From the IMG/VR virus record IMGVR_UViG_3300042879_005959, positions 1-25,639 of that record: DNA of 25,639 nucleotides; one strand, written 5' to 3'. Below, piece by piece: positions 1-24,618 of the stretch; the first letter of the stretch is position 1, and each line of letters opens with the position of its first letter. The notes under the pieces are model-generated. The model saw nothing but the letters and a program-made list of their open reading frames with translations. It was not told where the DNA came from and did not search any database. The stretch is from a virus. A program made the position numbers and the translations under genes.

Positions 1-412
1 GCTTGAGCCAGTTGGGCAATTGCTCATATGCAAGTCGCACTCTTCTGAATATTTCAATGGCTGTGCTTTCCTTGTTTGCAACAATGAGAATGTTTTGATC
101 TTGATTGAAGCATGCTACCCACAAAGCATAAATGCATAACAATGTTGTTTTGCCGAGCTGTCTAGATGTCAGCAAAATATTGTAGCGATTGTCTCGCAGC
201 ATTCTTAGTGCATCTTTTTGGTATTTGTACAACTCAATTATGACACGCCCTTTGTCTGGATCAATGATGTAAAAATAATTTTCAGCAAAAAACAATAAAT
301 TCTGTGCGCACTTTTTTAAATCACGCACCATTTGCGGTGTATATTCATATTCTGCTGTGCTGGTGGGCAGATTTGGGTTGTTGAGATAAAACTCTCTACT
401 TTTTGATGGCAT
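1..412 (-). CDS. terL: Terminase large subunit (gp17-like), 3' part outside window
   Basis: This is the packaging motor ATPase/nuclease that drives DNA into the prohead. Only the first 137 residues are in the window; the gene runs off the left edge. The visible part is the N-terminal ATPase: an adenine-binding segment LYKYQKDALRML (residues 61-72) followed by the Walker A motif SRQLGKTT (83-90), the exact form typical of T4 gp17. The start ATG (412-410) is preceded in frame by TAA. A TAAATA element on the same strand lies seven bases upstream. The gene diverges from the scaffold-like gene at 448. Walker B and the C-terminal nuclease are not visible. The family call is firm; the completeness of the gene cannot be judged. 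Confidence 0.93.
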   Translation of the reverse strand, partial: MPSKSREFYLNNPNLPTSTAEYEYTPQMVRDLKKCAQNLLFFAENYFYIIDPDKGRVIIELYKYQKDALRMLRDNRYNILLTSRQLGKTTLLCIYALWVACFNQDQNILIVANKESTAIEIFRRVRLAYEQLPNWLK

Positions 413-419
413 GCATGTT

Positions 420-425
420 TATTTA
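420..425 (-). promoter_or_regulatory. Late promoter-like TAAATA for terL
   Basis: TAAATA on the minus strand, followed by a seven-base spacer and then the terL ATG. It resembles the T4 late -10 element (TATAAATA). Function is inferred from the repeated placement of the same element before other genes in the window. Confidence 0.5.
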
Positions 426-435
426 CATGATGCAC

Positions 436-442
436 ATAAATA
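436..442 (+). promoter_or_regulatory. Late promoter-like ATAAATA for the scaffold-like gene
   Basis: ATAAATA followed by five bases and ATG at 448. Its spacing matches the other late elements in the window and decides between the possible starts of the downstream gene. It sits ten bases from the oppositely oriented element of terL. Confidence 0.55.
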
Positions 443-447
443 ATCGC

Positions 448-1242
448 ATGCAACACAAAAAAGCTAAAAAGCCTATGATGGGTAACAAGCGCGGCAAAGG
501 TGCACAAAATTTGCCACTCATGAAATCAAAAAAACCACTTGCCTCAACAGAAGCAATGGCATTTGACAAGCGCGGAGGTCCTGAACATGTGCAAGGCCTG
601 AACAAAGCAATTGAGCCAACCAGCAAAAAAAATCTTTATTCTCCTGAAAAATTTTCTTTAGGAGTTGAAAAAGCTAATATCACAGCACTAAATAGAAGTA
701 TGACTAACAAATCTGCTTTTGATACTCTTTACGAAGAAGTTATGGACAATCCCGCTGATCTCGGCGCCGAACATGAAGATCTTGATGCTCTTGATGTTGA
801 TACAGACTCACCTGATGATGACATGGGTGGAGACGAAATTACCATCACATTGTCACGCGAACTTGCTCAACAACTTCATGATGCCATCATGGGTCAACTT
901 GAGAGTGGCATGGAAGATGAAATGTCAGATGAAGAACTTGGTGCAGAAGATCTTGGCGCAGACATGGGCGATGAAGGTGATGATGAAGATACATTCCCTG
1001 AAAGTGTAACTGTTGAGCCAGAACCAAAGCCACTTGGCAACAGAGGCCATAAGCTCATGAGCAAAGGCAGCATGAAGGCTGGTGGCACAGTAACTGGCAA
1101 ATCTGGTGGCAAGCCTGCTACAACTGGAGCCAAAATTACTCTTCAGTCAGAGCCTAAAGAACTCAAGCACACAGTCAATGACGGCAAAGGCGGCAAAATG
1201 AAAGTCGGCAATTTGCAGCAAGGCAAGAGCCTTTTTGATTGA
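448..1242 (+). CDS. Acidic prohead core/scaffold-like protein (putative)
   Basis: 264 residues with a strongly charged layout. The first 40 residues are Lys-rich (MQHKKAKKP...). A long Asp/Glu-rich middle (about residues 95-190) contains an amphipathic stretch ITLSRELAQQLHDAIMGQL. The Gly/Lys-rich tail starts around residue 200. No enzyme motif is seen. Acidic, low-complexity, helix-bearing proteins next to terL and neck genes are often prohead core or scaffold proteins, so that role is an inference. I chose ATG 448 because it lies five bases after ATAAATA; in-frame ATGs at 406, 415, 427 and 430 exist but lie upstream of or within the promoter region. The gene ends at a strong terminator. It is the only plus-strand gene inside a minus-strand block. 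Confidence 0.6.
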   Translation: MQHKKAKKPMMGNKRGKGAQNLPLMKSKKPLASTEAMAFDKRGGPEHVQGLNKAIEPTSKKNLYSPEKFSLGVEKANITALNRSMTNKSAFDTLYEEVMDNPADLGAEHEDLDALDVDTDSPDDDMGGDEITITLSRELAQQLHDAIMGQLESGMEDEMSDEELGAEDLGADMGDEGDDEDTFPESVTVEPEPKPLGNRGHKLMSKGSMKAGGTVTGKSGGKPATTGAKITLQSEPKELKHTVNDGKGGKMKVGNLQQGKSLFD

Positions 1243-1261
1243 TCGATTAAACTATAAACAC

Positions 1262-1293
1262 AAAAAAGCGGAGATTTATCTCCGCTTTTTTTT
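1262..1293. terminator. Bidirectional intrinsic terminator
   Basis: Inverted repeat GCGGAGA (1268-1274) / TCTCCGC (1279-1285) with a four-base loop, flanked by six A on the left and eight T on the right. It works as a Rho-independent terminator on both strands. It lies between the convergent genes ending at 1242 (plus) and 1302 (minus), exactly where a shared terminator is expected. Confidence 0.93.
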
Positions 1294-1301
1294 GTGCTTT
1301 T

Positions 1302-1730
1302 TTAAATTGATAATGTTGAGCTGCTGTAATAATCATCCTCTGATGGAAGACTGCGCAGAAAATTATTGGCTACATCAACAGCGTTGATTTCGCTGATCAA
1401 ATACAGAGGAGATTTAAAATGCTCTTCGTAATTAATTTTGCCGCCACCAATTACATTGCTAGCAGCACATTCTACATCATACAAATTATATGTTTTGGTA
1501 TCATCCTGAATATGCTGCCAATTCTTAAACTCATTTACAAGATTAAGAGCATAAAATGTTGCTATTCGCTTGTTGATATCAGCAGATCTTGGTGACATTT
1601 GCATCATGAGATCACTCTTAACTACTGTTGCATCTTGACGCTCTGGCCAATTGATGCTATCTACTACTCTCCAAAATTCGTTGATCTGATCTTTGGAGAA
1701 ACGACTTGCGGCGCTACTATGTATTTGCAT
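1302..1730 (-). CDS. Hypothetical protein, 142 aa
   Basis: Unrecognised protein that begins MQIHSSAASRFSKDQ and has a Trp/aromatic-containing helical N-terminal half (FWRVVDSINWPERQD) and a short Ser-rich C-terminus. No signal peptide, membrane segment or catalytic motif is visible. Its ATG lies inside the end of the nuclease gene (14-base overlap), so it is probably translated by coupling and belongs to the same minus-strand operon. It ends nine bases from the bidirectional terminator, so it is the last gene of that operon. Confidence 0.75.
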   Translation of the reverse strand: MQIHSSAASRFSKDQINEFWRVVDSINWPERQDATVVKSDLMMQMSPRSADINKRIATFYALNLVNEFKNWQHIQDDTKTYNLYDVECAASNVIGGGKINYEEHFKSPLYLISEINAVDVANNFLRSLPSEDDYYSSSTLSI

Positions 1731-2427
1731 TTTGTATTTGTGTTTTTCTTAGTTGAAAGAGTTTTTCAATGGTATCTTTGCAGTAAATGATGGGAATTTC
1801 TTTCCAATATTTAGTATTGTTGTAAGTATTTGTTGTCAAATATAGAATCTTCATACCCTTGCAATGCTTGCCTGTTGCTTGCTGCATCATGTATGCATAA
1901 GTGGACAATTGCAATGTGTAGATGTTGTATTCACAATAATCTAGGAAGTTGAGAGGTTCAAGTAATTTTTCACCAAAATCATTGCTAAACTTAAACTTTT
2001 TGTTGGTTTTAAAATCCATCACAAAAAATTCTGCATCATTTTCAAGAATTAGATCTGCTGTGCCTGCAATGCGAGCACCATCATTCCAGAGCAAACATTC
2101 TGCTTTCTTTTGCTTGCATTTGAAACCTTCACTTGCTCTATTGAGACTCTTGATGAGGTCATTATATTCTTCAGCCACTTCACCATATTTGATGTAATCT
2201 TCCATGGCTTTGTGATAATTTTTACCTTTTTCTTGTGCTTCAACTGTTATGGTCTTCCACAAGTTTTTGATGGCCTCTGGCGTGGTATCGTTCTTTTCAG
2301 CAACTCTTGCTGCATGTGCATCAGTATCAAATGGCTTTTTGAAAGTATTTAAAAGAGTAGTTACACTGATGTATTCTACATCAAATGCATTGTAGTATTT
2401 GTGATTGACCTCGTCAAATTTGATCAT
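1717..2427 (-). CDS. PD-(D/E)XK (RecB/Cas4-type) nuclease
   Basis: 236 residues with the ordered motifs of the RecB-like exonuclease fold: a His in NYHKAMEDYI (H72), GTADLIL with D125, VMDFKTNKK giving D138-x-K140, and QLSTYAYMMQ giving Q173-xxx-Y177. These are the metal-binding and catalytic residues of PD-(D/E)XK enzymes, so it should cleave DNA in a Mg-dependent way. The position downstream of the neck gene and in the same operon is unusual. A role in trimming DNA during packaging or in degrading host or competitor DNA is inference. The start ATG sits in a palindrome 29 bases after the neck gene stop. No Cys cluster typical of Cas4 iron-sulfur proteins is evident. Confidence 0.82.
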   Translation of the reverse strand: MIKFDEVNHKYYNAFDVEYISVTTLLNTFKKPFDTDAHAARVAEKNDTTPEAIKNLWKTITVEAQEKGKNYHKAMEDYIKYGEVAEEYNDLIKSLNRASEGFKCKQKKAECLLWNDGARIAGTADLILENDAEFFVMDFKTNKKFKFSNDFGEKLLEPLNFLDYCEYNIYTLQLSTYAYMMQQATGKHCKGMKILYLTTNTYNNTKYWKEIPIIYCKDTIEKLFQLRKTQIQNANT

Positions 2428-2459
2428 TTATAAATGTAAATGATGATTTTTAAAAATCA
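2425..2459. repeat. Two AT-rich palindromes in the neck-nuclease junction
   Basis: CATTTATAAATG (2425-2436) is a perfect 12-base palindrome containing the nuclease start codon. TGATTTTTAAAAATCA (2444-2459) is a perfect 16-base palindrome containing the neck gene stop. They fill the only intergenic gap of this operon. They may be protein-binding sites or weak RNA hairpins; in AT-rich DNA chance is possible. Confidence 0.5.
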
Positions 2460-3266
2460 AGACTGATCGTAACCATATTCTCCATAAACACCAGTATTAA
2501 CAGCTCTTTGATCATAAACTTTGTTGATGCTGTCTGTGCTTGCATCACCAGGATATGATTTTGGTTGAGATTGTTGCTGCATTCCTCCAGACAGTATGCC
2601 ATTGAATGCATTGTCAAACACCTGAGCAGAACCTTTTTCACCAGAAAGACCAGGTTCAAAGCTGTAATCAAGGCGACGTGCACGAATTTTCCACAAATAG
2701 TGGCCGCCCAACATGTTGATGCCTTCACTCACGCTTTGATCCAAACGCTCTGTTATTTCAAAGAACTTGCCATTGCGATCTCCAGGGCGTGTTGATCCAT
2801 ATTGAGTGAGTTGAAACACATCACCAGCTTTGGGTTCAACAGCTTGACTGAGTGCAGGGTATACAGACAATGGTGAGAACGTTGCATAATAAGAACTAAT
2901 GTGTATAAATGCAGTGATGTTGTCATCTCCATCAAAACCAAAACGTTTGAGCACTGTATTGTCCTCAGTCAATTGAATGTACATCAAGATGTTGGTTGGA
3001 CCAAAGAATATGCTGGTTGGATCTTCACCATAAATGTTGTCTGCATTGGAAACATTGTAGGTGTTTACATAATATGCAACTGTGCTGCCATATCTATTGA
3101 TGATTTCCTGCACGCTACTGGAGATCAATTGTTGCTCACCACTGTTGAGAGCACTTTCATTGACATTTACTTGACATTGCAAATTGCCATTGTTGGCACC
3201 TGTATAAAAAACATTGCCACAGGTGTTTGGTGTGGGATATGTTCTGACTTGGTAATATGAATTCAT
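2457..3266 (-). CDS. 14: Neck protein, T4 gp14-like
   Basis: 269 residues. In T4, gp14 forms part of the neck that closes the filled head and joins it to the tail. Similar features here are the NIYGED segment (T4 has IFGED), the 'PKAGDVFQLTQYG...FFEITERLDQ' stretch matching T4 gp14 'PKEGDLIYF...LFEI', and the following LGGHYLWKIRARRLDYSFEPG region. The C-terminus is Gln/Ser/Tyr-rich and probably flexible. The start ATG overlaps the stop of the upstream gene (ATGA), so the two are translationally coupled. The homology is remembered pattern similarity, not a computed alignment. Confidence 0.72.
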   Translation of the reverse strand: MNSYYQVRTYPTPNTCGNVFYTGANNGNLQCQVNVNESALNSGEQQLISSSVQEIINRYGSTVAYYVNTYNVSNADNIYGEDPTSIFFGPTNILMYIQLTEDNTVLKRFGFDGDDNITAFIHISSYYATFSPLSVYPALSQAVEPKAGDVFQLTQYGSTRPGDRNGKFFEITERLDQSVSEGINMLGGHYLWKIRARRLDYSFEPGLSGEKGSAQVFDNAFNGILSGGMQQQSQPKSYPGDASTDSINKVYDQRAVNTGVYGEYGYDQS

Positions 3267-3721
3267 TGAATTGGCTTGTAATGCATGATCTTATACACTG
3301 GCTTGCCAGTTGCATCCATGTTTCTTACTACTGCTGCATTTATTTTTGAGTTGATTTGCAGCGGCTGATTGTCCTGCATGTTGTTCAAGTCAATGCCATG
3401 TGTGTTTTGAATCTCTTGCAAATCTGCATCACCAAGAACTTCTTGCATTGATGGGTTTTGAGTCACCTTGTCAATTTTATTCTTGGTCATTGATTGGGTG
3501 TTGATGTTGCTTTGAGCAACAGTATTGGTGGCGCCTGGATTATTCTTTGTTCCAGTGCGCAAACCTGTTGCATTTGCACCACCTGCAACGCGATTGTCTC
3601 TAATATTTGAAGACTTGTTGTAGCCAGGTCCATTGGCAAGCTTGATTGCATTTGGATCTGCAGCAGTGTTTTCAAAAAAAGTCTCAAATGTAACAAATGG
3701 CATTGAGGTAAGGATATTCAT
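3263..3721 (-). CDS. Hypothetical structural-operon protein, 152 aa
   Basis: Unrecognised. It begins MNILTSMPFVTFETFFENTA and continues into an Asn/Gly/Thr-rich, low-hydrophobicity middle (residues about 35-95) that is probably disordered, then a short structured tail ending MHYKPIQ. The start at 3721 is chosen because ATAAATA lies seven bases upstream; a longer reading from 3748 would run across the promoter. It is the first gene of the minus-strand operon and is coupled to the gp14-like gene by an ATGA overlap, so a head or neck role is plausible. Confidence 0.72.
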   Translation of the reverse strand: MNILTSMPFVTFETFFENTAADPNAIKLANGPGYNKSSNIRDNRVAGGANATGLRTGTKNNPGATNTVAQSNINTQSMTKNKIDKVTQNPSMQEVLGDADLQEIQNTHGIDLNNMQDNQPLQINSKINAAVVRNMDATGKPVYKIMHYKPIQ

Positions 3722-13033: not shown

Positions 13034-14923
13034 GTGATAAATTATTCAAAAACAAAGGTAGGTTTTACTAATGGTGCAGATTTTGTACTTTCAGCAAATA
13101 GCTATGTTGGTTATTATCATGTAATTGATGGTAGTGCTTATCAAGGTGCTAATATTTTAGATATTAGTCTGCCGCTTGAGGCTAAAAATAATATTTCAGC
13201 AGATGCTTTGCTATCTGAATTTTTGTATGATAGAATAATTGATGATGCTGTCTCTCTGCCTTATTCATTGAATGATATACTTGTAGCACCCAATGAAACC
13301 TGCAATGCTCGTGTGTTCAATGATAGACTTGAAAAACTCTACACCAATGCAATTTACCTGTATAACAATTTATTTTTAGCTAGCAACAATATACCCAATG
13401 GGTATGACAGAGCTGCAGGAGTTTCCAAAGCAACTAATACTTTGTCATGGTCTCAAGAAAGTGCACAATCTGGTGCTTCTTTTGCTCCATTTGCATCAGC
13501 AGGATATGCAGTTGTAGATGATGCAATACAATTTACTACAGTAAAAACATACAGCAACGATTATGTATTTTTTGGTATAACGCCTACTCACTTTGTTGCT
13601 CTTTCATCAAACAAAGATTTGACAGCATTTGATGTTGCAACAACCAATGAGTATGTTGCAGAAAATAATGATTTGAAATTTACACAGCTTGCAAGCTTTA
13701 GTGTGGCAGGCAAATATGCGTTTTTATGTGATGCTGCGCAAAATACAATTTATAAATATGATGTTTCTGGTTATTTTTCAGGAGATGCAACCATCTACAA
13801 TCGTCGCATTTTAATAGACAGCATTGGTGGATTTGGCAGTGCATTATCAAAGACCAAATTTGATTCACCAAACATTGTATTTGCTGTTGAACCTTTGAAT
13901 CGCTTGTATGTAAATGATAGCAACAACCGATGCATAAAAATATTTGATACTAGCTTTTCATATGTTGCAACAAAAACTTTTGCAGCAGGTTCTAATACTA
14001 TTGTAAAGTGCTTTGGATATAATCCTATTTTGCAGCGCATTTACTATGTAACAAAAAATGCTATTACACAGGAACATACTATACAAATATGTGATGCTGA
14101 TTTAAATGCAGAAGAGACTTATGGCTTGCCAGATGCATTGGAGCAAAATGAAGACTATGCAGGTTTTGTTTTTTCAAAGAATGATTCTAATATTTTTTAC
14201 TTGTTCACCAATCAAAATGTGTTTAAGAAATTTGTTAATAAGCCAAATAAAACCATAGGCAAATGGCTGCTATACAAAAGTGGAATAACAGCAACACACA
14301 TTTGGAATCTAGAGAATTCATTGTATAATTTGGCACAATGGAATTGGAATGAAGGTGAAATATCAATAAGAACAGCTCTCAGCATTAACGGCATGTCTTC
14401 TTTCTTTATTTCTGACATTGATGAAAGAGAAGAAATATTTTTGTTTGCGGGTGCCAACGACAAATCTTTTAACAGAATATTGCATTATACAGAAACAAAT
14501 ATTTTCAATACTGCATTGGGTGCTACTGTAATTAATGCATACAACATCTCCCAGGCCACAGTGGATGATAATGAATTTGTAAATGCCATGGTTGTAAACA
14601 AAGAGTTGTATAAAATTGCTTACAACATTTTGAACATCATAAGATTCATCACAAGCAGATATGCAGCAGAATATGATTTCTTGAATAATCTTGTATTTAA
14701 GAATACCATTGCTTTAACTGATGAAGAATTTGCTTTGATAAATTTTGTTAATTTAAAAAACCTGTATGTTCATGAAAATGAAATCATGAATAGCATTGGA
14801 CCAATCAATAGATGCTTCAGAGAGCTATGCAATTTGCAAAATAACGCATTGCAAATCGTGCGCACACGCATCAATAACTTCGTTTCATCGCTTTCTGGCA
14901 CACAAACAATTATTTTAAACTAA
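13034..14923 (+). CDS. Tail protein with NHL-like propeller, 629 aa (GTG start)
   Basis: Starts at GTG (MINYSKTKVGF). Residues about 180-400 hold propeller-like repeats, clearest in YAFLCDAAQNTIYKYDVSG (about 225) and LNRLYVNDSNNRCIKIFD (about 287), which match the NHL pattern of 'G.IYVAD..N.RI..F'. The last 120 residues are helical (LYKIAYNILNIIRFITSRYAAEYDFL, LCNLQNNALQIVRTRIN), suggesting an oligomerisation or attachment region. No catalytic motif was seen. Its neighbour at 9747 also carries propeller-like strands, so the pair may be functional partners in the tail tip. Family not identified further. Confidence 0.68.
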   Translation: MINYSKTKVGFTNGADFVLSANSYVGYYHVIDGSAYQGANILDISLPLEAKNNISADALLSEFLYDRIIDDAVSLPYSLNDILVAPNETCNARVFNDRLEKLYTNAIYLYNNLFLASNNIPNGYDRAAGVSKATNTLSWSQESAQSGASFAPFASAGYAVVDDAIQFTTVKTYSNDYVFFGITPTHFVALSSNKDLTAFDVATTNEYVAENNDLKFTQLASFSVAGKYAFLCDAAQNTIYKYDVSGYFSGDATIYNRRILIDSIGGFGSALSKTKFDSPNIVFAVEPLNRLYVNDSNNRCIKIFDTSFSYVATKTFAAGSNTIVKCFGYNPILQRIYYVTKNAITQEHTIQICDADLNAEETYGLPDALEQNEDYAGFVFSKNDSNIFYLFTNQNVFKKFVNKPNKTIGKWLLYKSGITATHIWNLENSLYNLAQWNWNEGEISIRTALSINGMSSFFISDIDEREEIFLFAGANDKSFNRILHYTETNIFNTALGATVINAYNISQATVDDNEFVNAMVVNKELYKIAYNILNIIRFITSRYAAEYDFLNNLVFKNTIALTDEEFALINFVNLKNLYVHENEIMNSIGPINRCFRELCNLQNNALQIVRTRINNFVSSLSGTQTIILN

Positions 14924-14930
14924 CTCATGT

Positions 14931-14938
14931 TATAAATA
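14931..14938 (+). promoter_or_regulatory. Full T4-type late promoter TATAAATA
   Basis: A perfect match to the T4 late consensus TATAAATA. It lies seven bases after the preceding TAA stop and six bases before ATG 14945. It is the best single late promoter in the window and the reference for the weaker copies. Confidence 0.7.
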
Positions 14939-17874: not shown

Positions 17875-20475
17875 ATGAGTAGCGGTGCTAATAAAATTGA
17901 AATTACACAATCAACCCTTTTAAAACTTCTTGTTCGTCGTGGCTCCAATGAAGAGCGCAAAAACATAGTTTTATCAGAAGGTGAATTGGGGTATGCAGTT
18001 GACACAAAAAAACTTTTCATTGGTGATGGTGCAAATGTGGGTGGCGTGCCTGTTACAACACAGGTTTATTATGGTGCCACTTCACCAATTGCTTATAATG
18101 CAGCAACCATAGGTGATTTTGCCTATGATTCAACAGAAGGTGCTTTGTATGTATTAACAGGTGATGATCCAACCACCATCGGCGATTGGGGAATTGTTGC
18201 TAATGATGTGCGCGTTGATGATGCAACAATGCAATTGATAACATACAATGGTGTTCCAAATACTCTTGCTGTTAAGACTGTTAGCGCAGCACAGCTTGAC
18301 CCAAATTTGCCTGGAACTGGTTTGGAATACAGTGGTGTGCCCATCAGAACAATTCAAACCACTGCAGATCAAGCTTTTGATAGCATCAGTTTGCGCTCTG
18401 CTGCAGCATTGCAAATACCTACCACCTTACAATTCGGTACAGCTGGTGGAGCAACTCAATATTCAATGCCACCCTTTGATGGTCCCAATGGTTACTCATT
18501 GGTCACAAATGGTAATGGTGTTCTTGAATGGAAGCCTGGCAATTCTGTTACAGAGTTTTTGGTTTTGACTGGCAACCAAATACCAGTTGGTACAATATTA
18601 CAGTTTGGATCTGGTGGCAACTTCCAACGAGCTGTTTCTAGTTATGATGTGCCTTATGGATATTTTTTATGTGATGGTAGAACGCTTTCAGGAACTCAGT
18701 ATCAAGCTCTCTGTGAAGCAATTGGAACGTTTTATGGAACTGCATCTGCTGGAACATTCAAAATTCCATCATTAACAGCATCAAATTATGTTTACCTCAT
18801 CAAATATCTTGAGGATCAATATGTTGAGCCTGTTACAATTTCTCTTGAAAACAGCCTCACTGGCTTAAACGTTACTGCATCAACATCGGTTTCATCTTTT
18901 GAAATTCCACAAAGTTCTGCTGTTGAAATTCGCTTGGGTGTTCCTGACTATGTTAGCAAGACTTATGTTGATTCTATTTTCTCCTCTTTGGTGGTTCAAA
19001 ATACTGTTTATAAGCTAGCAAAAATGTCTGAACCTAATTGCAGCAATGGTATAAATGCTCTAGGCTTTACAGCATTCATAGACAAACGTACCAAGGCATT
19101 GAGATTCAGCGGCTTGGATAGAAGTGGTGCTGCCGGTATTAGCAATATACAAAATAACTGCACTCTAATCCTCATTGATTCACCCATAGAATATGGTGAT
19201 GCATATGAATGTGCAGAAGAGATATATGGTGCAGAAGCCACTACATTTGTAGTCACCAACAGTGGCAATGTGTATGCAGCTGGTGATAATAATTATGGTA
19301 TAAATGGCACAAACAATTCCGCCACAGGTGGTATAAATGCTGCAAATTCTAGATATACCAAACTTACATTCCCTGCGGGTGCAGGCAAGGTTACAAAAAT
19401 AAGCATTGGTGGTGCTTGGTGGAATAGCGGGTCTTCTGTACGGCATGCTTTTGCATTGACAGAATCCGGCAGCGCATTTGCATGGGGGTATAATGGATAT
19501 GGACAAACAGGCCGTAATTCTTTGACAACTCAAGTAACATCACCAACCTCAACTCACACTGGATCTCTTTCTGACAAATTAGTAAGCAAGATATATTCAT
19601 TCTGTGGCGATACATATGGTTATTCTTTTGCCATTGATACATCTGGCGGCGTGCACGCCTGTGGCTATGGTGGTAGTTATAATTTTGGAAACAACTCAAC
19701 ATCCAATATAAACACTGGTTGGAGAAGCTTAAATAGAACTGCAGATGAAATCTATGCTGCAGTTGGTGGTTTTAACCAACATGCCACTTACTTGCTCTCT
19801 GGTGGCAAGCTGTGGGGTAGTGGATATAACAACGGATACCAAATTGGCAGAGCAACCGGTGAACCATACATTACCACTTTTGTGCCAGTTAGCTCCAGCA
19901 GCACAAGCTCTACACAGCTCACTGGTGTATCTGCTCTCTCCATAAGTGATAATTATGGTGGAGACTGCACAATAATTGCTTTGATGCAAAATCAAACCAT
20001 TAGAACATGGGGATATAATAACAGTGGGCAGTGTGGAACAGGTACCACATCTCAGTATATAACAGCTCCTGCTTCTAACATATCTACCGGTGGTGGATTT
20101 ACAAATGCAGGCATAGTTAAAATAAAAGCTCATGGATATTATCTGTATAGTTCAGTTTTTGTTATGAATTCTGCTGGGCAAATTTGGAGCACTGGATACA
20201 ATGGCCGTGGTCAATTGGGCAATGCCAACACTGGCTCAAATTCTAGCTTCTTTACCAGAGTAAAACAGCCGCGTGGAGTAACTTACAAAGATTTCAACAT
20301 CTATGCTGATTATAGTGCAAGTGAATCCTACACTGTACTTGCAGTAGATGCAAATGATAATTTATATGCTTGGGGCGGAAACATTTACTCACAGTGTGGG
20401 TTTGCCAACTACCCAACTTATGGAGCAAATAATTTGACCTATTACGGAACTCCACTAAAAATTAACTTCAATTAA
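17875..20475 (+). CDS. Fibre with Mtd N-terminus, collar domain and RCC1 propeller, 866 aa
   Basis: Domains in order: Mtd-type N-terminal domain (residues about 14-55, LVRRGSNEERKNIVLSEGEL then FIGDG); shaft; phage collar-like domain (about 238-310, VGTILQFG, PYGYFLCDGRTLSG, FKIPSLTASN); linker; RCC1-type repeats (about 455-860). The RCC1 signature G-N-YGQ-G recurs about seven times, for example AAGDNNYGINGTNN, AWGYNGYGQTGRN, RTWGYNNSGQCGTG, STGYNGRGQLGN and AWGGNIYSQCG, enough for one complete seven-bladed propeller at the C-terminal tip. A propeller at the tip is a plausible receptor-binding head. Its stop overlaps the following ATG (TAATG). The domain calls are by eye but the repeat pattern is strong. 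Confidence 0.85.
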   Translation: MSSGANKIEITQSTLLKLLVRRGSNEERKNIVLSEGELGYAVDTKKLFIGDGANVGGVPVTTQVYYGATSPIAYNAATIGDFAYDSTEGALYVLTGDDPTTIGDWGIVANDVRVDDATMQLITYNGVPNTLAVKTVSAAQLDPNLPGTGLEYSGVPIRTIQTTADQAFDSISLRSAAALQIPTTLQFGTAGGATQYSMPPFDGPNGYSLVTNGNGVLEWKPGNSVTEFLVLTGNQIPVGTILQFGSGGNFQRAVSSYDVPYGYFLCDGRTLSGTQYQALCEAIGTFYGTASAGTFKIPSLTASNYVYLIKYLEDQYVEPVTISLENSLTGLNVTASTSVSSFEIPQSSAVEIRLGVPDYVSKTYVDSIFSSLVVQNTVYKLAKMSEPNCSNGINALGFTAFIDKRTKALRFSGLDRSGAAGISNIQNNCTLILIDSPIEYGDAYECAEEIYGAEATTFVVTNSGNVYAAGDNNYGINGTNNSATGGINAANSRYTKLTFPAGAGKVTKISIGGAWWNSGSSVRHAFALTESGSAFAWGYNGYGQTGRNSLTTQVTSPTSTHTGSLSDKLVSKIYSFCGDTYGYSFAIDTSGGVHACGYGGSYNFGNNSTSNINTGWRSLNRTADEIYAAVGGFNQHATYLLSGGKLWGSGYNNGYQIGRATGEPYITTFVPVSSSSTSSTQLTGVSALSISDNYGGDCTIIALMQNQTIRTWGYNNSGQCGTGTTSQYITAPASNISTGGGFTNAGIVKIKAHGYYLYSSVFVMNSAGQIWSTGYNGRGQLGNANTGSNSSFFTRVKQPRGVTYKDFNIYADYSASESYTVLAVDANDNLYAWGGNIYSQCGFANYPTYGANNLTYYGTPLKINFN

Positions 20476-22765
20476 TGTCTAGCACAGTCATATCAACATC
20501 AGCAGCTGCGGCAAGCATTGCATTGCGCAAGCATATAATGCATATCAGGACATCACCTGGTCTTTGCAATACACTCTCTGTGGTGATGCAAATGCACAAG
20601 GCGGTTTTTGTGCTTTTTTGTATGATGCTCCTGATTTGACGCCTGGCGGCATTGGCAAGTCTTTGGGGTTTGCGCCATCTCAAAATTATACTGGATTTTC
20701 TAATATATCCGGCATTAGTGGTGCAATTGTTGGCATAGGTTTGGATAGTCTTGGCTTGTTTGCTGTTTCTGGAAATGGCATGGCAAGTGGCATTGATGCT
20801 TCTCAAGCTATTCGCAATGCTATAACCATCAGAACCGGAACTAATTTTACCTTTTTAACTACATTTGCAGCCACTGCTTTTGATTCCACATTTACAGTTG
20901 TTCAATCATCTGCAGCATTGCAGCAGTTGCGATTCAGACTTACAGAAGCAAGCAATGCTGTGGAAATTGCACAATGGAATGGTGATGCATATGATGTTTG
21001 GTGCAATGTTCCTGTTTCGTTGAACTTGCCTGCATCTGCTTTTTGCAGAGCAGGCTTTTCATTTGCTGCACCTCTCTGTGGAAATGTTGCTGCAGCTAAG
21101 TTTGGCATTGCAAATGCACATTTTGAGGGATCATTGCAGCAACCAACTCAGCAAATTGTAGAACCACCACTGCAATGCAAATTGCCTGTTGTATCAAATA
21201 TCAATGTTGCAACACCAAATTCAATAACAATACAACCCAACATTGAAACACTGGGTGGAGCTTATGCGCCCATTGAACCACCAGCACCATTGCCTGATCC
21301 ATGTGATGCTCAACCTACTGCTACAGTCAAATGCGGTGAAAATATTTCTTATGTTGGTGAACGCGGCACCTTTTATTATTACATTGATGCTGGTGAAGCA
21401 ACAGGCGAATTTACCATTGCATATGATGCTTATGCCGTCCCAGATAGATTTACACTTACATGGAACAATCAAGTAGCTACATCATGCTTTGTTGGTGATT
21501 CAAGCTTTAATGCTGAATTATCTGCACTTGGCTATGGACCTGTTGCTTCAACAGGCAGAGGGTTGCTTAAAATTAACAAAACTTTGAGCAATCCACGAAT
21601 TGTGGAATTGCGCGTTGATGGTCCGTTGGAGGGAACTGCATGGGAAGTTCAGGTATTGTGCATACCAACACCACAGCCACAATTGCTGCTTTATAGGGGC
21701 ACAAATACATCTCCAGCTAACCTCATTAATAATTTTGACAGCATCAACTTTGGTACATTTAATTTGGGACAATCTGCTCAACAGATTTTCACCATTAAAA
21801 ACAATGGTGATGCAAATTTAAATTCTTTTAGCTTGGTGCAGCTGCTCACTGCATCATTTTCACAATACAAAGTTGGTATTCCAATTACTTCAGCTGCAGT
21901 TGCACCAAATGGTTCAACTACTTTTGCCATTAATTTTACACCTACATTAACAGGAAGCAACAATAGTCAATTTGCTCTGTATAGTAATGATGCGAGTAGT
22001 CCTCTTACTTTTAATCTTGGTGCTACTGTTCTCAGTGATGCTATTCCATTGTGTGCATGCAATTCAGAAATTACTTATAGCGGCAATCAAGGTGTATTTA
22101 CTTACAACCTAGATTATGGTTCTGATGTTGGTGACATCAGCATCGAATACAATTCATTTAGCATCCCAGATAGATTTACACTCAACTGGAATGGCATAAG
22201 TGCAACTACAGGATTTGTTGGAGATTCTACATACAATGGCCAGTTGACTGCTCTGGGCTATCCATCTGTTGCTTCAACAACAAGCTACGGCTTTTTATCT
22301 GTTGCTAAAACATCAGCAGAGCCTCAGTATGCTACATTAACAGTTGAAGGACCGCTTGTGGGAACAGCATGGTATGTTAAATCAAGATGTATAGAAATAC
22401 CAACTCCAACACCTACACCAACTCCAACGCCTACTCCAACGCCTGTACCACCAACACCACCACCTACACCACCGCCAACTCCAACACCTACGCCGCCACC
22501 AACACCTACGCCGCCACCAACACCTACGCCAACTCCAACACCTACGCCAACTCCAACACCTACGCCAACTCCAACACCTACGCCAACTCCAACACCTACG
22601 CCAACTCCAACACCTACGCCAACTCCAACACCTACACCAACACCTACACCAACACCTACGCCAACTCCAACTCCAACTCCAACTCCAACTCCAACACCTA
22701 CGCCAACTCCAACACCTATGTCAACTCCAACACCTATGTCAACTCCAACGCCAACGCCCCTATGA
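20475..22765 (+). CDS. Lectin-like multidomain adhesin with Pro-Thr tail (one frameshift)
   Basis: ATG 20475 overlaps the previous stop and reads [18 protein letters not shown], then needs a -1 shift near 20530 to continue as [16 protein letters not shown]. Next comes an L-type-lectin-like domain ([29 protein letters not shown]). A 110-codon Cys-bounded domain (21332-21661) is followed by an ASH/choice-of-anchor-D-like Ig domain (about 21690-22050: [25 protein letters not shown]) and by a second copy of the Cys-bounded domain (22058-22390). The protein ends in about 120 residues of Pro-Thr repeats. The 3' end overlaps the glycosyltransferase gene by ATGA. Probably a virion adhesin binding glycans. 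Without the shift the first frame stops near 20640, so this is a sequencing error, a real lesion or programmed shifting. Confidence 0.72.
22400..22760 (+). repeat. Pro-Thr minisatellite
   Basis: Tandem array, mainly of the 18-base unit CCAACTCCAACACCTACG and its 6-base fragments, encoding PTPTPT. It makes the tail of the adhesin. Units are multiples of three, so copy-number change preserves the frame. The other plus frame (Asn-Ser-Asn-Thr-Tyr) and the opposite strand (Gly-Val) are also open, an artefact of the repeat composition. Confidence 0.95.
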
Positions 22766-24618
22766 TCCAAATCGCATGTGTTATGAAATCGGGCGGTGAA
22801 TATGAATCTCGCCACGTATTAATGCTCAAAAAGATGTGTGAAAAGTATATTCCCAACAGCCGGTTCATTTGTCTTAGTGATGTCGATATTGCAGGCTGCA
22901 CGACACTAAAATTACAGCACCCAAACTGGAGAGGCTGGTGGTCTAAGATTGAGCTATTTGGTCCATTACTTGAAAATGTTCCCACTATGTTCTTTGATCT
23001 TGATACTATTATTATAGATGATATTTCTGATATTTTATCTGCTGTATCAGGCAAGGAATTTGTAATATTGCGCGATATTTATAGGGGAAAATTCAATGCT
23101 AAAAGTATGCAATCATCTGTTATGTACTGGAGTGTTAAACCAACTGAAGTATATGAGAAGTTTATCGGCAATTCAGATAGTATAATTTCAAGCATGAGGG
23201 GTGATCAAGACTTTCTAGAAGCATCTATCGAGAGAAAGGTTGAGTATTTCCAAGATATAACTCTTGGTTTCTCTAGCTATAAGCGCGATATTGTTCGTAG
23301 AGGCATTTTGCCTAAAGATAAAGTAATTGTATTTCATGGCAAGCCTCGTCCATGGCAACAAGATATTATTCCATACGAGTGTAAAAGAAATCGCGATGAT
23401 CTTGTATTGCGAAACGGATTTGTTGTTCCAGTAAGTGATACTAAGTGTCTGCCAGCAACATTAAAGCATCTTAATGATTTAAATGCATATGTAGCATTGT
23501 GCACAAACAAAAGAACTGTAATTCAAGCAGGAGGAAACGTGGGTGTGTGGCCCCATCAACTTTCCAAATCTTTTATTAAAGTAATTACGTTTGAGCCTGA
23601 TAAATTAAATTTTGAGGCGTTATCAATTAATGTAGGTGATTTAGGTAACGTGCAATGTTACCAAAAAGCTCTCGGAGCATCAGCGGGTAGAGCATCATTG
23701 CAGAGAGTTAGCGATAATATTGGAGCACACTCCATAAAGAGTGGTGATGAGTTTGATGTTATTGATATAGATTCCTTGGGTGTAAAAGATTGTGATCTCC
23801 TTCAGCTTGATGTTGAAGGATATGAACACGAGGCACTTATTGGAGCACGAGCTACTATTGAGACGTCTAGGCCGTTGATCGTATTAGAGCTTAAAAGACA
23901 TGGAGAGCGATACGGTCATACTAATGAAAGCACTATTGAGCTTTTGAAGCAATGGGGATATGAGCAGATAGCTAAGTTAAATCGCGATTATGTATTTAAA
24001 TATAACGAAAAGAAACCGAAAGCTGTACAATTTTATAATATGCCAAGCTTTTCACCTATTCACCGTGATGAGACATGCCTATTAGTAGGAAATGGACCAT
24101 CAGCTGCCCTAGATGGCAATGGAGCACGTGTAGATTCTTTTGACCAGGTAGTGCGCTTTAATCAATTTAAAATTAAAGGATTTGAGGATTGCGTAGGCAC
24201 TAAGACTACACTATGGTCTACCTTTGGCCGAGGGATGGTACCACATGATGATATACGCCCCGATAGAGCAATATTCATTCACGGTGATAATGGTGACCCT
24301 GCGTGGGTGATGAAAGAGCTTTGGAGAATACCTCTTAGCTATTTCAATCAGATTATACCTGAGTGGGAGAACGCTAAAGGACAAAACGGTAACAGGCTGT
24401 TGCCGTCTTCTGGTTTCCTCGTTGCATCGTGGCTACTTGATCAAGGTGTTAAACAAATTCACTTACTGGGTTTTGATCACTTCGAGAAGCAGAGATCAGG
24501 TCAACACCACTACTGGAATTCACGCTCTTATAAAAGGCCTACGGAGCATGATGGTGATTTTGAGTCATTAATATTTAAAAAATGGGAACAAGAAGGACGT
24601 GTAGTGTATTTTAAATGA
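22762..24618 (+). CDS. Trifunctional glycosyltransferase-FkbM methyltransferase-GT29-like enzyme
   Basis: 618 residues from ATG 22762, which overlaps the adhesin TGA. Domain 1 (about 1-215) is a GT-A-type glycosyltransferase with [10 protein letters not shown] (DxD, about 78-87), GDQDFLE and HGKPRPWQ (about 191). Domain 2 (about 245-410) is an FkbM-type SAM-dependent methyltransferase with [12 protein letters not shown] (about 252), ITFEPD and [17 protein letters not shown] (about 347). Domain 3 (about 435-618) is GT29/sialyltransferase-like: [13 protein letters not shown] (about 438), [33 protein letters not shown] and LLGFDHF, then HHYW. It could extend and O-methylate a glycan. Leucine is rarely TTG here (one of the first eleven) while TTG is common in the fibre genes, which suggests separate acquisition. 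An upstream ATG in the repeat is rejected. Confidence 0.82.

Follow-up and report, generated by a model that had tools for sequence, protein, structure and literature searches.

A phage gene joining GT8-like, FkbM and GT29 domains overlaps a Thr-Pro-tailed fibre-like gene and may serve glycosylation of the fibre

A single viral gene was found to combine two glycosyltransferases and a methyltransferase in one chain, and its start codon overlaps the stop codon of a fibre-like gene that ends in a long Thr-Pro repeat. We analysed a window of 25,639 nt, the whole stretch of DNA available from IMG/VR record IMGVR_UViG_3300042879_005959 (positions 1 to 25,639). The enzyme (P0001; 22762–24618, + strand, as are all features below) is an uninterrupted open frame of 618 amino acids with an ATG start. 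Its division into three domains, put forward in an original prediction from the letters alone, was borne out by domain profiles: these support a GT8-like GT-A glycosyltransferase, an FkbM methyltransferase and a GT29 glycosyltransferase, and in both glycosyltransferase domains structure models of high confidence concur with the sequence profiles. The motifs quoted in that prediction ([17 protein letters not shown]) and the DLD motif are present in the protein, the observation as a whole lies far above chance, and the DxD, SAM-motif and sialylmotif residues are retained in nearly all relatives. Two outcomes that would have counted against the original prediction, a domain 3 modelled unlike GT29 and loss of the DxD and SAM-binding residues in relatives, did not occur. 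Among 514 records searched for the same three-way fusion, the window (L001 in our numbering of loci) was the sole carrier. The domain content is consistent with an enzyme that builds a glycan bearing both a cap and a methyl group. Whether the phage uses this one-chain assembly enzyme to glycosylate its own tailed fibre is evenly poised in our judgement, and gene neighbours in the phage GT29 group point more to the fibre than to the host surface, two targets between which the original prediction did not choose.

Domain 3 (residues about 423–618; 24028–24615) carries the clearest family signature. It matched Pfam PF00777 (Glyco_transf_29) at 8e-17 and 61.9 bits (cut-off 23), and a 47-row profile of the window and its phage relatives matched mammalian ST3Gal-I (2wnb) over profile positions 6–196 of 197 (3.9e-33). 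Its model (pLDDT 88.1, pTM 0.88) takes the GT29 fold, with sialyltransferases as best structural matches: all 24 PDB chains retrieved by Foldseek at E ≤ 0.001 were mammalian sialyltransferases (2wml, E 1.8e-9), and human ST6GalNAc2 (6apj_F) superimposed with Z 16.5 and 3.0 Å over 189 residues. In a tree of 102 GT29 rows, with identical domain sequences merged, domain 3 falls in a close group of 13 rows (support 100/100) found here only in viral contigs; cellular GT29 matches spanning at least 100 residues were only 23–31% identical. We take four sites to be the GT29 sialylmotifs. Motif L (residues 438–485; 24073–24216) contains N467 and G479, and motif S (residues 546–573, PSSG ... GFDHF; 24397–24480) contains G551, all three identical in 102/102 rows. 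Motif III (H583-Y584-W585 within HHYW; 24508–24516) retains H583 in 13/13 close rows and 51/60 other phage rows, and motif VS (H596 ... E601, HDGDFE; 24547–24564) retains H596, presumably the catalytic base, in 11/13 and 58/60, respectively. The PSSG, HHYW and HDGDFE sites lie beyond the motifs listed in the original prediction. Domain 3 thus resembles GT29 sialyltransferases (PF00777; ST3Gal-I, 2wml/2wnb; human ST6GalNAc2, 6apj) in its fold, in all four motifs and in the two conserved histidines, at 19–24% identity to the ST3Gal-I and ST6GalNAc2 entries and complexes in Foldseek alignments. Unlike the animal enzymes, it is one part of a three-domain phage protein. Animal GT29 sialyltransferases carry a disulfide, whereas motif L of domain 3 has a Cys and motif S has none, so that an animal-type disulfide is impossible.

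Domain 2 (residues about 207–422; 23380–24027) is assigned to the FkbM family of SAM-dependent methyltransferases, with above-cut-off scores against NCBIfam TIGR01444 (60.4 bits, cut-off 37.7) and Pfam PF05050 (45.9 bits, cut-off 22.7) and a match to phrog_8156 (1e-32). G257-x-x-x-G261 (23530–23544), which we take to be SAM-binding motif I as in other family members, was conserved in a 36-row alignment (G257 in 35 and G261 in 33 of the 35 rows with a letter there), as were E278 (33/35) and D350 (36/36). In contrast to ordinary FkbM methyltransferases, the domain sits fused between two glycosyltransferases. Domain 1 (residues about 1–206; 22762–23379) matched phrog_1962 'glycosyltransferase' (2.6e-32), and its model (pLDDT 95.4, pTM 0.91) is predicted to adopt a GT-A fold close to GT8, with LgtC (Z 17.1), glycogenin (Z 16.9) and GlyE as best PDB matches. 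Each aspartate of the DxD motif (D79-L80-D81; 22996–23004) is identical in 79 of the 81 rows aligned, the window counted. A profile of domain 1 relatives matched Skp1 galactosyltransferase (2e-6) and glycogenin (4.5e-6); we call the domain GT8-like because other GT-A enzymes score too and the window protein itself has no match to PF01501 (Pfam GT8) at E ≤ 1. It has the GT-A fold and DxD in common with LgtC, glycogenin and pneumococcal GlyE, yet identity to the solved structures is only 12–17%; phage P1 PmgQ shows the same likeness, and the PmgQ region of P1 is ~31% identical. At 22 of 80 domain 1 loci there was an FkbM-like gene on the same strand no more than 300 b away, fused at none of them (0/80), and none of the 84 domain 1 relatives with enough upstream sequence was preceded by an X-Pro tail.

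The gene directly upstream (20564–22765) encodes a fibre-like protein of 733 amino acids with a HYDIN/ASH-type Ig-like domain (PF22544, 1.6e-7; phrog_13374) and a C-terminal Thr-Pro tail. Partial relatives occur in Flavobacterium phages, hypothetical where annotated, and its position among collar and fibre genes suggests a tail fibre or other virion part. The tail is coded by an 18-bp tandem repeat (22400–22758; 20.1 copies, TRF) and comprises, in the 121 residues from residue 613, 63 Pro, 52 Thr and 2 Ser. Stop and start codons of the two genes share the four bases ATGA (22762–22765), an arrangement absent from the original prediction, and translation of fibre and enzyme is probably coupled. 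The same overlap (ATGA or GTGA) occurs at L144, L145, L146 and L152; at L145 an alternative ATG start lies one base further, in register. An X-Pro repeat ending the directly upstream gene was thus combined with a four-base overlap in the window and in three other GT29 lineages (L144 and L146; L145; L152).

X-Pro repeats were concentrated around the close GT29 group. An ORF with a dense P-x-P repeat lay within 2.5 kb of 8/13 close rows, 0/60 other phage rows and 1/29 cellular or plasmid rows. Two of the eight are on one contig (L027), and a ninth row, L047, shows the repeat on its longer copy L145. Rows are not independent, as the Fisher value of 9.6e-8 for this comparison assumes: clustering at 60% identity reduced them to 9 clusters in the close group and 44 among other phages, many scanned loci are contig copies (for example L027/L146, L053/L148, L047/L145, L031/L147, L048/L149 and L002/L061), and close rows are few, with L144, L145, L146, L152 and L328 sharing a tail-gene relative between particular pairs. 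The comparison is biased, if anything, against the close group because its rows have shorter flanks (2.5 kb or more on each side in 4/13 close and 40/60 other phage rows; at least 1 kb upstream in 8/13 and 54/60). Two close lineages lacked a dense repeat nearby (a short repeat at L149, none at L150/L151). A methyltransferase was fused to or located beside GT29 in 7 of 12 close-group records and was of three kinds: FkbM in the window, Methyltransf_24 at L144, L145 and L151, and Methyltransf_11/25 at L146 (= L027), L150 and L152. None of these three families was found at GT29 in the other five records. The methyltransferase was swapped between near relatives (L150 versus L151, L144 versus L146), and GT29 and methyltransferase were almost the sole genes common to close-group phages of differing backgrounds in the stretches compared. 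This near-exclusive sharing backs gene acquisition as a mobile module better than codon use, from which the original prediction had drawn it: leucine codons differed from those of eight other fibre-region genes (chi-square p = 0.0105, lowest of nine genes), but not significantly after correction for nine tests, and arginine codons gave p = 0.051, so that codon use argues only weakly for acquisition. As for a donor sugar made by the phage itself, NeuB and CTP_transf_3 were absent from all 12 close-group records, the window included, a result of little weight in partial records.

We also started from tails instead of enzymes. A scan of 227 loci returned at least 18 sites with both an X-Pro tail and an overlap; L144, L145 and L146 fall outside them, L144 and L146 because their end prolines are not strictly alternating. 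Tails were purely Ser/Thr-Pro at 3 of the at least 18 sites. At these (at least 3) sites, the next gene encodes a methyltransferase-GT29 at L231 (the L152 contig again) and a GT9 at L370; at L328 the next frame is cut at 64 residues and is methyltransferase-like by eye. Pfam identified no transferase among the downstream proteins of the 15 other sites, which comprised head-tail connectors (L315, L348), 'xxxxx_N' (L359), a P22-type tail factor (L415, after an overlap and a mixed Thr-Pro and Asp/Glu-Pro tail) and proteins matching no family. Dropping the overlap condition yielded 80 Ser/Thr-Pro stretches and 31 tail genes of at least 80 amino acids, 26 of them with a next ORF; a small number of gene families accounts, in copies, for many of these 26 loci. 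We ran Pfam on eleven of the next genes, ten from the 26 loci plus that of L483, which follows a 65-residue open piece, and the other loci were judged by eye. None of the 11 encoded a glycosyltransferase or methyltransferase; matches were to a GIY-YIG endonuclease and to sub-cut-off structural or plasmid families. We thus reject a general rule that places a glycan enzyme gene after a Ser/Thr-Pro tail (0/11). The next gene at L479 is transferase-like by eye, with no Pfam match.

We hypothesize that the phage glycosylates its own fibre as follows. Domain 1 would add a first or extending sugar from a nucleotide-sugar donor, most likely to hydroxyls of the Thr-Pro stalk; the FkbM domain would O-methylate the sugar, and the GT29 domain would transfer Kdo or a different nonulosonic acid that the host supplies in CMP-activated form. 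The tail fibre would thereby gain a mucin-like, methyl-capped stalk, which could confer stiffness or protease resistance, or mask or alter adhesion. Several observations argue against the fibre as acceptor. In the loci scanned, Ser/Thr-Pro tails are generally not followed by such enzymes, and the repeats at L144 and L146, being His-Pro, offer no site for O-glycosylation. To these are added the close lineages that lack a dense repeat, the tail factor after the overlap at L415, the absence of X-Pro tails upstream of domain 1 relatives and that of NeuB and CTP_transf_3 in the partial records. In favour of the fibre, the GT29 (L144, L027) adjoining the one kind of repeat that contains no Ser or Thr (L144, L027/L146) has Met at the presumed catalytic His. 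A wider reading, which we offer tentatively and consider rather doubtful, is that an X-Pro mucin-like C-terminal stalk and an overlapping GT29-methyltransferase gene form a mobile phage module, of which the window holds the most compact, one-chain form (GT8-like, FkbM, GT29), putting a methylated, nonulosonic-acid-type-capped glycan on its own fibre, with methyltransferase exchange varying the cap like a serotype. If true, some tailed phages coat their own fibres with mucin-like methylated glycans using a family of enzymes familiar chiefly from sialylation in animals, which would add a new layer to phage host binding, protease resistance or recognition avoidance. Pairs of tail and enzyme genes would provide a directly testable enzyme and acceptor.

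Other explanations account for part of these observations. The enzyme might instead act during infection on glycans of the host surface (LPS, capsule or teichoic acid), blocking superinfection or changing phage release. Bacterial GT29 genes can sit in polysaccharide clusters, such as one on a Pseudosulfitobacter plasmid that also contains FkbM, mannose and sulfotransferase genes, and serotype-altering phage glycosyltransferases are described in a part of PMC12619734; we nevertheless judge this unlikely, given a gene that is placed in the fibre region, overlaps a fibre gene and recurs beside X-Pro neighbours across phage backgrounds. Somewhat less probable again is that the repeat DNA is a recombination-prone landing site at fibre gene ends, occupied by glycan-enzyme modules that do not act on the tail. 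Such a site would fit the 18-bp tandem array, the near absence of other genes common to the different phage backgrounds, the His-Pro tails without hydroxyls and the lack of such enzymes, where scanned, after Ser/Thr-Pro tails taken without the overlap condition. It leaves unexplained, however, why the repeat lies beside the close GT29 group only (8/13 versus 0/60 phage rows), why the overlaps are exactly four bases and why the GT29 next to His-Pro tails has lost its presumed catalytic His.

Two further readings have little in their favour. Frameshifting within the repeat could fuse fibre and enzyme, so that the virion displays the enzyme by way of an X-Pro linker, and the enzyme frame is indeed open through the entire repeat (745 codons). 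This open frame is no evidence for fusion because the genetic code allows no stop codon in any frame of Thr-Pro, His-Pro and Ser-Pro repeats (the last with TCN serine codons); extracellular transferases would, moreover, be without nucleotide sugars, and we consider such a fusion very improbable. We give still less credence to glycosylation and methylation of modified bases in phage DNA. Known GT29 enzymes act on glycans, the gene has structural genes as neighbours, and general family scans of the window proteins, the record being a fragment, revealed no base-modification gene. Phage glycosyltransferases are nonetheless frequently DNA-directed, as a section of PMC12619734 states.

Self-glycosylation of the fibre would have a partial counterpart in mycobacteriophages, in which glycans occur at the C-termini of virion proteins (Freeman et al. 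2023, as cited in a passage of PMC12619734). The likeness lies in the C-terminal location on phage virion proteins; the mycobacteriophage glycans decorate capsid and tail tube, whereas the target proposed for the window is a fibre stalk, and that passage of PMC12619734 mentions neither GT29 nor an FkbM fusion nor an X-Pro stalk. Within the open literature (titles and abstract openings, with few subscription papers covered), we found no account of a GT29 domain in a tailed phage or of a GT29-methyltransferase fusion. Like the window, the 484-kb uncultured phage LR756508 (L003) encodes GT29; it has four GT29-like genes, of which three lie in tandem. Its genes differ from the window in being separate, adjoined by NeuB and GDP-mannose dehydratase families and placed outside the close GT29 group. 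The phage GT29s are small (< 200 residues per domain) and could be of use in glycan synthesis.

Within the window, a virus record of 25,639 bases, the enzyme is encoded by a stop-free frame of 618 residues on the plus strand (22762-24618), and family matches along this frame bear out the original prediction that a glycosyltransferase, an FkbM methyltransferase and a GT29-like domain are joined in one protein. Residues 3-201 matched the glycosyltransferase family phrog_1962 (2.6e-32) and residues 247-416 the methyltransferase family phrog_8156 (1e-32); TIGR01444 FkbM scored 60.4 bits (cut-off 37.7), and Pfam matches to GT29 (8e-17) and FkbM (9e-12) both exceeded the cut-off. The best hits of the whole enzyme among solved sequences, ST3Gal-I and human ST6GalNAc2, both mapped to domain 3. 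The predicted structure of domain 3 (47 rows comprising the window and phage relatives, pLDDT 88.1, pTM 0.88) agreed with the anticipated GT29 fold: all 24 PDB chains at Foldseek E ≤0.001 were mammalian sialyltransferases, and VIA-align Z reached 16.5 for ST6GalNAc2 and 16.0 for ST3Gal-I, with lower values for the GT42 enzymes Cst-I and CstII (both 11.0) and for a pyrophosphokinase (9.9). The 47-row profile matched ST3Gal-I at 3.9e-33, spanning positions 6-196/197. The domain 1 model (72 rows, pLDDT 95.4, pTM 0.91) was structurally closest to LgtC (Z 17.1), glycogenin (16.9) and GlyE (16.4). The DxD aspartates were retained in 79 of 81 domain 1 rows, the SAM glycines G257 and G261 in 35/35 and 33/35 rows of domain 2 relatives, and N467, G479 and G551 were invariant across 102 GT29 rows.

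A motif-L DNA pattern retrieved 56 stretches from viral_contigs, each with a GT29 frame (56/56). Among 514 records, the three-way fusion was found only in the window and its own copy (L001); no other record fused any two of the three domains in the form modelled here. In the best 80 of 194 loci with domain 1 profile relatives, a co-directional FkbM-like gene lay no more than 300 bases away in 22, and the two were fused in none. Domains 1 and 2 have their nearest relatives at loci L002 and L062 (the first gene of L062 being truncated by the contig start), where they are two separate, overlapping genes with 47-53% identity to the window's domains. Given these separate genes and a fusion confined to the window among the 514 records, the enzyme looks like a phage GT8-FkbM gene pair joined to a GT29 gene. 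At locus L129, two GT29 domains share one open frame of 1178 residues (1-3534), and a 480-residue frame nearby has a C-terminal GT8-like domain. The pmgQ region of phage P1 (AF234172, 81449-82087) codes for a domain 1 relative of ~31% identity, so this "morphogenic" protein is probably a GT8-like glycosyltransferase.

Scanning with the five closest GT29 sequences yielded 39 viral loci, of which 12 showed 41-50% identity along most of the domain length, and 26 cellular loci (from one genome per species, 84,980 bacterial and archaeal species), in which matches of at least 100 residues were only 23-31% identical. In a 102-row GT29 tree, the window grouped closely with 12 further viral rows (support 100/100), and the 28 genome rows fell outside this close group. 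Across the compared stretches, GT29 and methyltransferase genes were almost the only genes common to the differing phage backgrounds of this group; in the listed pairs, L144, L145, L146, L152 and L328 also shared a tail-gene relative.

Methyltransferase partners (METHYLTRANSFERASE) from three families were sought in 12 close-group records, and in seven a methyltransferase was fused to or adjoined GT29. The fused partner is FkbM in the window, Methyltransf_24 in L145, and of Methyltransf_11/25 type in L146 (second gene of its same-contig copy L027), L152 and, in reverse order, L150; a separate Methyltransf_24 gene comes directly after GT29 in L151 and also in L144, where the two overlap by four bases. 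All three families were absent from L141, L142, L143, L147 and L149, and other FkbM matches on the L150 and L151 records lay tens of kilobases off. In L149 (5956-7341), the GT29 fusion partner is instead a C-terminal Evr1/Alr (sulfhydryl oxidase) domain (PF04777, 1.1e-10). The methyltransferase that follows the same GT29, whether fused or separate, differs between the near relatives L150 (5971-7077) and L151 (5971-7081), which share 11 matching ORF pairs, and between L144 (6537-6920) and L146 (L027, 1520-2608), whose GT29 domains are 84% identical, which suggests exchange of the methyltransferase between near relatives. Outside the close group, L039 encodes a GT29-Methyltransf_23 fusion. Such recurrent pairing with varied methyltransferases points to a common product, a methylated glycan.

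Directly ahead of the enzyme lies a fibre-like gene (20564-22765) whose product closes with a 121-residue stretch comprising 63 Pro and 52 Thr; the stop codon of this gene and the enzyme's start codon overlap as ATGA. A C-terminal X-Pro tail with an ATGA/GTGA overlap recurs at L145 (Thr-Pro), L152 (Ser/Thr-Pro), and L144 and L146 (His-Pro). Elsewhere in the close group, a divergent neighbour carries a Thr-Pro linker (L141, L143), a Ser/Thr-Pro protein lies one gene away (L031), or the upstream overlapping gene (613 aa) contains a short TPTPTPPPP stretch (L149); no X-Pro repeat was found near GT29 at L150 or L151. When an X-Pro neighbour was defined as any frame within 2.5 kb with at least 9 P-x-P steps per 30 residues, one was present for 8 of 13 close rows, versus 0/60 other phage rows and 1/29 cellular or plasmid rows; a ninth close row, L047, has one on its longer copy (L145). 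The close loci were selected by GT29 similarity, independently of the tail.

Scans starting from the tail (eight alternating prolines ahead of an overlapping start; 109 and at least 120 stretches) fetched 227 loci with at least 18 sites where both genes were ≥60 aa. Pure Ser/Thr-Pro tails occurred at three. One, L231, is the L152 contig again, with the tail followed by methyltransferase-GT29. In L370, a DUF5122 beta-propeller protein with a long Ser/Thr-Pro tail (13045-14934, minus strand), shares the ASH/HYDIN Ig-like type with the window's fibre; a GT9 gene and a capsule-type transferase come after it, across a four-base overlap. The L328 tail precedes a 64-residue frame cut by the contig end, methyltransferase-like by eye and with no family match above cut-off. 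No Pfam transferase lay downstream at the other 15 of the at least 18 sites, nor, in a scan without the overlap condition (80 stretches), in the 11 next genes scanned. Prediction thus runs in one direction, from membership of the GT29 group to the tail and not from the tail to the enzyme. L035 (9029-13054, minus strand), whose GT29 falls outside the close group, has a Ser-Pro-rich tail frame and, one base on, a gene run including GT8, GT2 and GT29.

Our leading reading, to which we give about even credence, is that the phage decorates its own fibre. That the enzyme instead changes the host surface we consider rather unlikely, and that the X-Pro repeat, coded in the fibre by an 18-bp tandem array, is merely a recombination landing site we hold to be improbable. 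For the putative fibre decoration, the His-Pro lineage cuts both ways. The L144 and L146 repeats contain no Ser or Thr, and this counts against the repeat being the acceptor there. In the adjoining GT29 genes (L144 5956-6540; L027 948-1523), Met replaces H596, presumably the catalytic base in animal GT29 enzymes; the His is present in 11/13 close rows and 58/60 other phage rows, and the second GT29 of L027 retains it in an HDGQVE motif. A Ser/Thr-free tail together with Met at H596 is how joint loss of acceptor and activity would be expected to look, an anecdote from a single lineage.

In the literature searched (titles and starts of abstracts), we found no description of an X-Pro stalk linked to a GT29-methyltransferase module, or of the one-chain GT8-like/FkbM/GT29 form. 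Virion-protein glycosylation as a kind is already known, since mycobacteriophage virion proteins are glycosylated (Freeman 2023, as cited in PMC12619734). The window encodes a further fibre-like protein with Mtd_N, tail collar and RCC1 repeats (17875-20475). A 484-kb uncultured phage (L003, LR756508, 9-6549) has four GT29-like genes, three in tandem, alongside genes of the NeuB and GDP-mannose dehydratase/epimerase families; together these may form a nonulosonate pathway encoded by the phage.
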